Origin: Prochlorococcus sp. MIT 1307
Lineage (GTDB): Bacteria > Cyanobacteriota > Cyanobacteriia > PCC-6307 > Cyanobiaceae
DNA: 64,000 nucleotides
Reading direction: 5' to 3'
NCBI RefSeq assembly: GCF_034092395.1
Contig: NZ_CP139301.1
Location: 992,001 to 1,056,000 of the forward strand
Shown: positions 22,757 through 26,273 of the stretch, piece by piece
Layout: the number at the start of each line of letters is the position of its first letter
How positions within the stretch are numbered: the stretch's first letter is position 1
Translations under genes and position numbers: made by a program
Notes under the pieces: model-generated
What the model was told of the DNA's origin: nothing
Databases searched by the model: none
Seen by the model: the letters and a program-made list of their open reading frames with translations, nothing else

Positions 22757-23491
22757 TCAACTAAATCGTTTAGCAAGTGCTATTGGATCAAGGATCGATA
22801 TTTTCTTCCTCTCAATCTGTAGCAAGCCGGAGTTCCGCAAGTCACCTAACAATCGTGTAATTGTTACTCTCGTAGAACCAATTGCTTCAGCAATTGCTTG
22901 ATGTGAAAGCTTTAAATCTATTGTGATTCCCTTTTGTCCTGGGACTCCAAAATCTCTACAAAGGACAAGAAGGAAGCTCACCAAGCGCGATGACATATCA
23001 CGATGAGTCAGGGTTTCAATCATAGTTTCGGTCTGTAAAATCCTTGTAGATAACCCTTGCAGTAGTAAAAGCCCAACACTTGCATCACCTTCTATAGCAT
23101 GCAGAACTGAAGCTGCTGGAGCTGTCACCATTTCTACTCTTGTAAAAGCGACAGCATGATAAAAACGATCCGAACGTTGGCCCGTAATCAAAGAAAGAAC
23201 TCCAAATAAACTGTTCTCCCTTAGCAAAGCCACTGTAATTTCTTCACCAGATTCATAAACTCTCGATAATCGAACAGCGCCTCGACGTATTAAATAAACT
23301 CTTTCAGCTGGGTCTCCAGGAAAAAAAATAGTTTTCGATCGCTCTATCAACTCAGTATTCGCTCCATCAAGACCTCTCATGACATCAAGCAAGGTTCCAC
23401 TAACAGGCCCCGGCCCATTAATCAGATTTGTTGTTTTTGGTGAGTCTGGTTGTGGTGCATAGCGGCTAAAGCCGCGAATAGCGCCGGCCAT
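22757..23491 (-). CDS. ntcA: Global nitrogen regulator NtcA
   Basis: A 244-residue CRP/FNR-family transcription factor. The cNMP-like sensory domain ([33 protein letters not shown]) binds 2-oxoglutarate, and the helix-turn-helix segment ([20 protein letters not shown]) near residues 195-215 is the highly conserved NtcA DNA-binding helix. It activates genes for ammonium uptake and assimilation such as amt, also in this window. A near-consensus NtcA box lies upstream (23513-23554), fitting autoregulation. It may be followed on one transcript by DUF3084 and the YqgF-like gene. Confidence 0.97.
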
Positions 23492-23571: not shown

Positions 23572-24294
23572 TTATAAAACTGAAAGTTGAACCGCAAGAA
23601 GTTGCTTAATACCTGGCTCAGCAATATCGAGCAAATTATTGAGCTCTGCTCTTGAAAAAGGCTTACCTTCAGCAGTGCCCTGAAGCTCAAGCAAACGGCC
23701 ATCAGCGTCCATGACAACATTCATATCAACATCCGCTGATGAATCTTCATTGTAATCAAGGTCAAGCAAACAAGTCCCATCCTTTAAACCCACAGAGACT
23801 GCCGCGACTTGGCCTGCAATGGGATCATTAATTAAAATGCCTTTCTTTAAAAGCCTTAAACAAGCCAATTTGAGTGCGATCCAGGATCCAGTGATAGAAG
23901 CTGTCCTAGTACCCGCATCAGCTTGAATCACATCACAATCAATCAAGAAAGTTTTTTCTCCAAGCACTTCCATATTCAGCACTGCTCTAAGACTTCTCCC
24001 AATAAGCCTCTGAATCTCCTGAGTTCGACCTGAAAGCTTCATTAACTCACGATTTTGTCTAGTAGGAGTAGAAGCAGGCAATAACCGATACTCAGCACTA
24101 AGCCAGCCTTTCCCGCTCCCTTCCAACCAGGAAGGCACACCTTCCCTCATGGACACACTGCAAAGGACACTTGTGTGACCTGTCTTGATAATCAAGGAAC
24201 TAAGAGCAAATCCCATCGGGTCCAGGGTTACCTGGCAATGCCTTAATTCATCTGAAAAACGGCCCGTTGCTCTCATCTCAGGAACAGAACTCAT
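23572..24294 (-). CDS. rph: Ribonuclease PH
   Basis: A 240-residue phosphate-dependent 3'-5' exoribonuclease that trims tRNA 3' ends. Diagnostic segments are GHTSVLCSVSMREGVPSWL, WLSAEYRLLPASTPTR, QEIQRLIGRSLRAVLN, FLIDCDVIQADAGTRTASIT and DLDYNEDSSADVDMNVVM. The frame opens at 24309, but the ATG at 24294 (MSSVPEMRATGRFSDELR) is a better start. It is divergent from the cobO-like gene with a 67-bp promoter space. ntcA lies 80 bp downstream. Confidence 0.95.
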   Translation of the reverse strand: MSSVPEMRATGRFSDELRHCQVTLDPMGFALSSLIIKTGHTSVLCSVSMREGVPSWLEGSGKGWLSAEYRLLPASTPTRQNRELMKLSGRTQEIQRLIGRSLRAVLNMEVLGEKTFLIDCDVIQADAGTRTASITGSWIALKLACLRLLKKGILINDPIAGQVAAVSVGLKDGTCLLDLDYNEDSSADVDMNVVMDADGRLLELQGTAEGKPFSRAELNNLLDIAEPGIKQLLAVQLSVL

Positions 24295-24361
24295 GATTTC
24301 GAAAAACAAATATACAGATTGCTTTAAGCCTTAAAGAATTTCTAGCAATACACTATAGATA

Positions 24362-25045
24362 GTGTCAAAAAAGTTGTTTATTGAATTCTCACCGCTAGAT
24401 TCATGGAATAGAGGTTTGGGGCCTGAAGTTTTTATGATCTCAAGAATTAGCCCTGAGTATCTTCCTAAACAAAGCCGAGCAATTGAAACTAGAGCAGGCC
24501 TGCATCCTGTTTCTACTCCTGGCAAGCGAGCACATCTCCATTTAGTTACTTCAGAAGGTCAACTGCAAGTACACACCGCACCCTTTAGAGGAAGTTTCTC
24601 AGGCGTCCTTAGCGAGGCACTAAGAGCCGCAGGATTAGGAAGTCGAGTAATTGTGGCGCAATTCTTAAAAGGAGGAGTCTCCCAAGGCCCCGAAGGAGCT
24701 GTTCAACTATGTGGACGACTGAAATGGCTAAGACCTTCCATCTCCTGCTGTCTAGTTGAGAACGCAAAAGAAAAGTCTTGCATCGAAAACAAATCAAATG
24801 AAAGAAATGCCGTTAGAGAAATATGGCAGGTTTGCAAAGAGAACATTCTTGAAGGAATCATCGATCAACTTGTTTTAGACGAAGTGGGCCTAGCCATTGC
24901 CCTTGGCTATCTCAAAGAAGATGATTTGATCACCACTCTTGAGCAACGTCCAGACGCTATGGATGTGATCCTTACAGGTCCTGCTATCCCACCAAGAATA
25001 ATGTCCATGGCTGATCAAGTCACAGAATTACGCTCAGGACACTAA
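24362..25045 (+). CDS. CobO/BtuR-like cob(I)alamin adenosyltransferase with degenerate Walker A
   Basis: A 227-residue protein with a ~60-residue N-terminal extension. The C-terminal half fits CobO: ALRAAGLGSRVIVAQFLKG, the Walker B-like DQLVLDEVGLAIALGY, and VILTGPAIPPRIMSMADQVT. The position where CobO has its P-loop (GNGKGKTT-type) reads HTAPFRGSFSG (about 71-81), lacking Gly-Lys-Thr/Ser. Enzymatic adenosyl transfer as in CobO would therefore be doubtful; it may bind a corrinoid without ATP, or have a new role. The start is a GTG at 24362. It overlaps dcd by 1 bp (TAATG), and cobS at the window start shows the cell makes a cobamide. Confidence 0.75.
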   Translation: MSKKLFIEFSPLDSWNRGLGPEVFMISRISPEYLPKQSRAIETRAGLHPVSTPGKRAHLHLVTSEGQLQVHTAPFRGSFSGVLSEALRAAGLGSRVIVAQFLKGGVSQGPEGAVQLCGRLKWLRPSISCCLVENAKEKSCIENKSNERNAVREIWQVCKENILEGIIDQLVLDEVGLAIALGYLKEDDLITTLEQRPDAMDVILTGPAIPPRIMSMADQVTELRSGH

Positions 25046-25638
25046 TGCTAAAAAACGATCGCTGGATAACCAAACAAGCCAAAGAGGGAATGCTTGAACC
25101 CTTTCAAGAATCACTAGTACGACATCTTCAACCAGAGTCCAACAAAAATCCTGTACTTAGTTTCGGATGTTCGTCCTATGGATACGACCTGAGACTTTCC
25201 TCTGAAGAATTTCTTATTTTTCGACATGTTCCAGGAACAATAATGAATCCCAAAAGATTTAATCCAGAAAACCTAGAGTCAACTGCCCTCCACCAGGATA
25301 AAGATGGAGATTATTTTATACTTCCAGGCCATTCCTATGGACTAGGTGTAGCGCTTGAGAAAATGAAAGTTCCCCCCAATATTACCGTCATATGCCTAGG
25401 TAAAAGTACATATGCAAGGCTGGGAATAATAGTAAATACAACACCAGCCGAAGCCAGTTGGGAAGGTCATTTAACACTTGAATTCAGTAATAGTTCTGGT
25501 GCTGACTGCCGCATTTATGCCAATGAAGGCATATGCCAATTACTCTTTTTTGAAGGTGATCCTTGTGAAACGACTTATAGTGATCGCAAAGGTAAATACC
25601 AGCATCAACCTGAGCGCGTTACGCTCGCAAAGATTTAA
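25045..25638 (+). CDS. dcd: dCTP deaminase
   Basis: A 197-residue enzyme converting dCTP to dUTP, the feed for thymidylate synthesis. The family motifs are SFGCSSYGYDLRL, a central GVALEKMKVP, the GKSTYARLGIIVNTTPAEAS catalytic core with conserved Glu, and GHLTLEFSNSS. Length is normal. The start ATG overlaps the cobO-like stop (TAATG), and thyX begins 3 bp after the dcd stop, which suggests a cobO-like/dcd/thyX operon for deoxyuridylate supply and methylation. Confidence 0.96.
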   Translation: MLKNDRWITKQAKEGMLEPFQESLVRHLQPESNKNPVLSFGCSSYGYDLRLSSEEFLIFRHVPGTIMNPKRFNPENLESTALHQDKDGDYFILPGHSYGLGVALEKMKVPPNITVICLGKSTYARLGIIVNTTPAEASWEGHLTLEFSNSSGADCRIYANEGICQLLFFEGDPCETTYSDRKGKYQHQPERVTLAKI

Positions 25639-25640
25639 TC

Positions 25641-26273
25641 ATGAATATTGTTGAACTGGTTGCAACAACTCCAGATGCAGAGAAAACAATGGCATATGTT
25701 GCAAGAGTAAGTAATCCTAAAAATCAAGATAATCAAGACTTCACAAAGTTAATTCAATATTGTATAAACCATGAACACTGGAGTGTATTTGAACAAGCAT
25801 ATATGACTTTACAAATAGAGACTAATAGGGGAATTGCAGCGCAAATTTTACGCCATAGGTCTTTTACTTTCCAAGAGTTTTCTCAGAGATATGCCGACAG
25901 TACGCAACTTGGAAAGATTCCAATTCCAGAATTACGTCGTCAAGATAATAAAAACAGGCAAAATTCATTCTCTGACTTACCCAGTGAAGTTGCGAATAAG
26001 TTCAAATCAAGAATAAAAATTCAATTCGAACAAGCAACACAACTCTATGAAGAAATGATTGAGTCAGGGGTTGCAAAAGAATGTGCGCGTTTTGTATTAC
26101 CTATTGCAACTCCGACACGAATATATATGACTGGATCTTGCCGTTCCTGGATTCACTATATCAAGCTTAGGACAGGACATGGAACCCAAAAAGAGCATAT
26201 GCAAATTGCTAATAAATGCAAGAATATTTTTTGTGCCCAGTTTCCTACAGTATCTAAGGCTTTGGAATGGTAG
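25641..26273 (+). CDS. thyX: FAD-dependent thymidylate synthase (ThyX)
   Basis: A 210-residue flavin-dependent thymidylate synthase, methylating dUMP with methylene-THF and NADPH. The ThyX signature is present as RHRSFTFQEFSQRY, and the C-terminal SCRSWIHYIKLRTGHGTQKE segment completes the FAD/dUMP site. Cells with ThyX often lack ThyA. It follows dcd after 3 bp, so deamination and methylation steps are genetically coupled. It is convergent with the thioredoxin-like gene. Confidence 0.97.
   Translation: MNIVELVATTPDAEKTMAYVARVSNPKNQDNQDFTKLIQYCINHEHWSVFEQAYMTLQIETNRGIAAQILRHRSFTFQEFSQRYADSTQLGKIPIPELRRQDNKNRQNSFSDLPSEVANKFKSRIKIQFEQATQLYEEMIESGVAKECARFVLPIATPTRIYMTGSCRSWIHYIKLRTGHGTQKEHMQIANKCKNIFCAQFPTVSKALEW

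Follow-up and report, generated by a model that had tools for sequence, protein, structure and literature searches.

The open reading frame at 24362–25045 (+) of a 64,000-nucleotide stretch of Prochlorococcus sp. MIT 1307 (the window, meaning the whole stretch analyzed) raises the question of what a CobO-like protein does when its ATP-binding loop is gone and it lies directly upstream of two genes of nucleotide metabolism. We refer to this P-loop-less CobO paralog as X. The frame as called begins at GTG 24362 (227 aa), but comparison of ortholog N-termini shows several that begin at a common Met, equivalent to ATG 24434, and the probable product has 203 aa (24434–25045). From this ATG, 41 residues precede the first conserved Gly, compared with 28 in Salmonella CobA (1g5r chain numbering). 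The 60-residue N-terminal extension claimed in an earlier reading of the letters alone (the sequence-only reading) is largely a start-codon artefact.

Downstream on the same strand are dcd, encoding a dCTP deaminase (25045–25638; TIGR02274, 115 bits), and thyX, encoding a FAD-dependent thymidylate synthase (25641–26273; TIGR02170, 176 bits). Of the two spacings reported earlier, the 1 bp between X and dcd is an overlap (the TAA and ATG share base 25045), and the gap between dcd and thyX is 2 bp rather than 3. Divergent from X is rph, encoding RNase PH (23572–24309, −; PF01138 and PF03725), which also adjoins X outside the window's family. It is followed by a cyanobacterial-type ntcA (22757–23491, −; TIGR03697, 363 bits), which adjoins rph in the window's family. 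Of 544 related loci, the best 80 belong to Prochlorococcus, Synechococcus, and their near relatives.

X scores 92 bits against PF02572 (cut-off 25.7) and 78.2 bits against TIGR00708, below that model's cut-off of 167.75. It retains the C-terminal motifs for which it had been called CobO-like, LTGPAIPP and the Walker-B-like VLDE (24872–24883, +; D149 and E150, the latter invariant). A structure predicted with AlphaFold (pLDDT 88.5, 53-row alignment) has the fold of CobA (4hut; Z 19.6 over 152 residues at 28% identity), and the next family, RecA, reaches Z 12.2. X shares with CobO/CobA/BtuR proteins a common fold, the QF(I/L)KG and VLDE motifs, and the core size, and differs from them in its TIGR00708 score and in having neither the GxGKGK(S/T) loop nor the GFTWET loop. 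Its best NCBIfam match is NF005648 (PRK07414), at 157.8 bits against a curated cut-off of 248. Other listed members of the window's family also score under this cut-off, and 14 of 60 relatives pass it. Seven control genomes, Synechococcus elongatus included, have a match too, and a single one of these, presumably S. elongatus, exceeds the cut-off. In a 47-row tree, X sits in a deep clade (support 100/99, 23 rows) that includes NF005648 members over the cut-off and is separate from canonical CobO (85/78) and from the two tandem CobO domains described below. X thus belongs to the NF005648 clade, which is monophyletic, likewise P-loop-less, and often found beside dcd, but not to the model as curated. 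The name given by NCBI, P-loop NTPase family protein, misleads, since the loop is present in no member examined.

The 2.03 Mb genome carries three CobO-superfamily genes. Besides X there is a canonical cobO (257 bits, cut-off 185) with an intact loop, and a tandem two-domain CobO (NF005647, PRK07413; 774 bits, cut-off 426) with both P-loops intact, so that the search for a second, intact cobO returned two loop-bearing proteins. The tandem protein resembles X in superfamily and in its association with class II ribonucleotide reductase (RNR), but differs in keeping its P-loops and in forming a separate clade. Another genome, G243, has two extra loop-less X-like paralogs (L209 and L210) on its 172 kb contig C2 and also a normal X beside dcd.

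The CobA loop GNGKGKTT binds the triphosphate of ATP. Where CobA reads FTGNGKGKTTA, the window protein reads HTAPFRGSFSG (24572–24604, +), as had been noted. The pattern G.GKGK[ST], checked on canonical and tandem CobO as positive controls, was present in 9/9 canonical cyanobacterial CobOs and in 14 domains of seven tandem proteins, and in 0/55 members of the X family. It was also absent from 100 further X loci, some from the same genomes, among them loci of genomes whose class II RNR is of the other type (L211–L215, L218, L219, and L225). GK[ST] occurred in a single X ortholog, inside its N-terminal tail (the same contig recurs among the 100 further loci). A shifted but intact P-loop, for which we checked, is therefore ruled out.

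The place of CobA Lys39 is occupied by Arg in 54/54 aligned members (Arg52 in the window). At the Lys41 place the same members have Ser (33, including Ser54 of the window protein), Phe (19), Met (1), or Leu (1), and never Lys; Thr or Ser is found at the Thr42 place in 0/54. We also compared Phe91 and Trp93 of the CobA GFTWET loop, used as a criterion for CobO/CobA. Trp93 is present in 9/9 canonical CobOs and 0/54 X, and Phe91 in 9/9 canonical CobOs and 4/54 X, with Cys in the window protein. Because this loop is not kept, any mode of corrinoid binding by X must differ from that of CobA. Sixteen positions are invariant in 53 aligned X, including R52, Q76, G81, Q84, G85, W98, R100, W131, and E150. 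Judged from these alignments, the P-loop replacement is far beyond chance and conserved across the class. The ATP loop is gone, yet the ancestral pocket has invariant residues, which suggests that a ligand site persists in altered form. ATP-dependent catalysis has very probably been lost. The earlier view that X is not a normal adenosyltransferase gains from the family-wide loop loss and from the presence in this genome of two further CobO proteins that do have the loop.

We then compared the distribution of X with that of class II RNR. X was scored as present at NF005648 E ≤ 1e-37 (weakest accepted 1.8e-38, strongest rejected 1.1e-21), and class II RNR at RTPR (TIGR02505) E ≤ 1e-60 or by NrdJ_Z (TIGR02504); in one set 1 genome (G051) the RTPR match is in pieces and passes by E-value and not by curated cut-off. 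Genome G025, outside both sets, has a split X match with a best piece of 7e-24, which shows the risk of missing a divergent X. Set 1 was drawn from the 93 Cyanobacteriia genomes among the matches listed, with 13 no-match genomes of the phylum lying outside, and comprises the 79 that remain once 14 X-positive genomes of already sampled genera, all RTPR-positive, are left out. Set 2 comprises 80 of the 319 genomes of the class, namely 18 RTPR-negative or unusual genomes not in set 1 and 62 others, mostly one per genus.

Across these 159 cyanobacterial genomes, which take in all RTPR-negative genomes of the 319 and only part of the RTPR-positive ones, 118 have both X and class II RNR, 34 have neither, five have class II RNR alone, and two have X alone (Fisher p 6e-27). 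The respective counts are 48, 29, 2 (G099 and G162), and 0 in set 1 and 70, 5, 3 (G259, G268, and G436), and 2 (G239 and G447) in set 2. X is almost certainly associated with class II RNR. Both genomes with X alone are drafts (~800 and ~50 contigs) in which the three RNR models match nothing, so assembly gaps are likely. The five converse exceptions indicate either that X is not strictly needed for class II RNR or that the model missed a divergent X. X was not found in the dcd regions of G099 and G162, and G436 has class I RNR in addition to class II with no X detected. A CobO-family match persists in 27/31 X-negative genomes of set 1, and CobO as such therefore does not follow the pattern.

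Nine X-positive genomes without RTPR carry NrdJ_Z instead (G048, G243, G250, G273, G298, G302, G325, G331, and G342, from families f13 and f35). Eight pass the cut-off and G048 does not. The G048 match lies in pieces within a 1,601-aa frame, but the best piece extends to the model end, just as it does in the congeners G243 and G250, and class I scores no more than 133 bits in this genome. The NrdJ_Z genomes of f35 differ in this from the other f35 genomes sampled. Since X is kept with NrdJ_Z where RTPR is absent, what it follows is the cofactor class rather than any single RNR sequence. Among the 34 genomes with neither X nor class II RNR, NrdJ_Z is over the cut-off in none and class I NrdA in 33, all 33 of which are without X. 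In G097 (f28, genus g65; a single contig, 99% complete, dcd region L109) the RTPR, NrdJ_Z, and class I NrdA models are all unmatched, and its congener G448 has both RTPR and X. Class I was sought in only nine X-positive genomes and was over the cut-off in 0/9, and the two classes may coexist in other X-positive genomes. Beyond the window's family, many genomes have an RTPR match that is broken up inside one frame of ~1,000–1,850 aa (e.g., G162 C1:2559880–2565318), an arrangement that looks like inteins.

Dependence between X and its candidate partners was assessed with a correlated-evolution likelihood test (8 versus 4 rates, flat root) on an rpoB tree. The tree comprises 30 genomes selected so as to include X-negative cases. 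X and class II RNR gave LR 30.5 (p 3.9e-6), a p-value that is indicative, given the many weak branches and the selection of genomes. Each trait needs five changes on this tree. There are three to four supported independent pairs with none against, and a sign test on them is not significant (p 0.125–0.25).

Class II RNR requires AdoCbl. As X is kept with either subtype and is missing from the genomes in which class I alone was detected, the best explanation is that it serves nucleotide reduction by the AdoCbl-dependent route. Our proposal, for which we rate the chances just short of even, is that X is a non-catalytic CobO paralog that serves the class II, adenosylcobamide-dependent ribonucleotide reduction of cyanobacteria. 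Its place beside dcd and thyX would come from a pathway they share, in which dCTP is produced by RTPR, dUTP by Dcd, and dTMP by ThyX. According to PMC6370689, the B12 users of cyanobacteria are two enzymes, NrdJ and MetH; of these, the one that uses AdoCbl is class II RNR. Marine Synechococcus, in the strains examined in PMC4850488, produces pseudocobalamin only.

The mechanism that we infer has the tandem CobO making or remaking adenosylcobamide as part of an AdoCbl-RNR support set. X, presumably unable to use ATP, would keep a putative corrinoid pocket, hold adenosyl-(pseudo)cobalamin, and hand it to NrdJ after receiving it from an adenosyltransferase, of which the tandem CobO is the probable one. 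This specific role as a cofactor chaperone is the least certain part, and we hold it with slightly less than even confidence. Within the same proposal X may instead regulate the adenosylcobamide step or take spent cofactor back. The analogy for such cofactor handling is human ATR (MMAB). Human ATR is of the PduO-type family, differs from CobO in family and from X in being catalytically active, and serves as a works-like analogy only. It delivers AdoCbl to methylmalonyl-CoA mutase and so provides a precedent for an ATR also acting as an AdoCbl chaperone (PMC8633584). More tentatively still, X may be a dedicated cofactor-handling pseudoenzyme for B12-dependent RNR, possibly the first, that loads, protects, or recycles adenosyl-pseudocobalamin and is gone after a switch to class I. 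Counting against the proposal are the loss of the Phe91/Trp93 loop, the five genomes with class II RNR and no detected X, the few supported independent contrasts, and the absence of X from the phage PSS2 described below. A further point against it is that, at the gathering threshold, no cobalamin riboswitch turned up in the window or near cobO, the tandem cobO, or nrdJ.

Tandem CobO also tracks class II RNR, so X may serve tandem CobO rather than NrdJ. It could be a regulatory or structural pseudo-subunit of tandem or canonical CobO that tunes adenosylation for NrdJ without carrying the cofactor. CobA is a homodimer, which would make an X-CobO hetero-pair plausible, and tandem CobO is over the cut-off in 47/48 X-positive genomes of set 1, with both P-loops intact in the seven sequences read. 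The two nonetheless come apart in both directions: in G130, X accompanies class II RNR with no tandem CobO over the cut-off, and G097, G099, and G162 have tandem CobO and no X. We regard this explanation as unlikely, if the strongest of the rivals.

The position of X beside dcd invites another explanation, that it senses nucleotides or acts allosterically to couple Dcd, ThyX, and NrdJ, and may bind a nucleotide or other anion via the invariant Arg52. On the same strand and within 700 bp, dcd lies downstream of X in 52/72 loci (50/67 genomes, five fetched twice), including 33/33 loci in the window's family and 19/39 outside it, the latter not a fair sample because some loci were chosen with dcd results in view. 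Against this stand the distributions. In set 1, dcd is over the cut-off in 37/48 X-positive and 16/31 X-negative genomes, a weak association (plain Fisher p 0.03) in which 11 X-positive genomes have no dcd over the cut-off, and on the rpoB tree of 30 genomes no dependence between X and dcd could be detected (LR 1.9, p 0.76). A function of X through dcd is therefore not supported, despite the usual adjacency, and the dependence of X is on the B12-using RNR. This leaves a sensor role quite improbable. The partnership with nucleotide metabolism raised in the sequence-only reading survives through class II RNR and not through dcd or thyX.

If X were still catalyzing adenosylation with a modified triphosphate loop, this would fit the retained fold, VLDE, and F(L/I)KG, but the places of CobA Lys41, Thr42, and Trp93 are changed in 54/54 aligned members and the loop is intact in two further CobO proteins of the genome, making this explanation very improbable. 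Mere shared ancestry, in which a few lineages happened to lose both X and class II RNR, could draw on the five changes per trait and the three to four supported pairs, but is hardly credible given the correlated-evolution result, the joint absence of both traits inside families whose other sampled members have both (f28 [G097 versus its congener G448], f29 [G197], and f26 [G442]), and the retention of X in f13 and f35, where NrdJ_Z replaced RTPR.

We know of no factor that brings AdoCbl to class II RNR in cyanobacteria, and the literature searched, in the text available, showed none. No paper was found that names PRK07414, PRK07413, or COG2109. Searches on cobO with dcd, thyX, or ntcA, on dCTP deaminase with adenosyltransferase, and on AdoCbl-RNR chaperones returned nothing on X in the available text. 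X, conserved in Prochlorococcus and Synechococcus, is a concrete candidate for this delivery and would link the B12 economy of the ocean to DNA synthesis. B12 capacity would be overestimated if X genes were taken for adenosyltransferase genes.

We also searched for X in viruses. Viral contigs yielded 36 pattern matches, none confirmed. Phage records searched by tblastn with X gave five weak matches (27%–30% identity), two of them from human faeces and three to the tandem CobO of cyanophage PSS2. The available text on PSS2 lists cobO, nrd, dcd, and thy1 among its genes (PMC2784084). We find that this phage has independently brought together class II RNR, tandem CobO, dcd, and thyX, which speaks for the proposed support set, but that X is absent. 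The PSS2 gene annotated as cobO (L207, 7491–8525) encodes a tandem two-domain CobO that has 43% identity to the tandem protein of the window genome and scores 395 bits, slightly under the NF005647 cut-off of 426.
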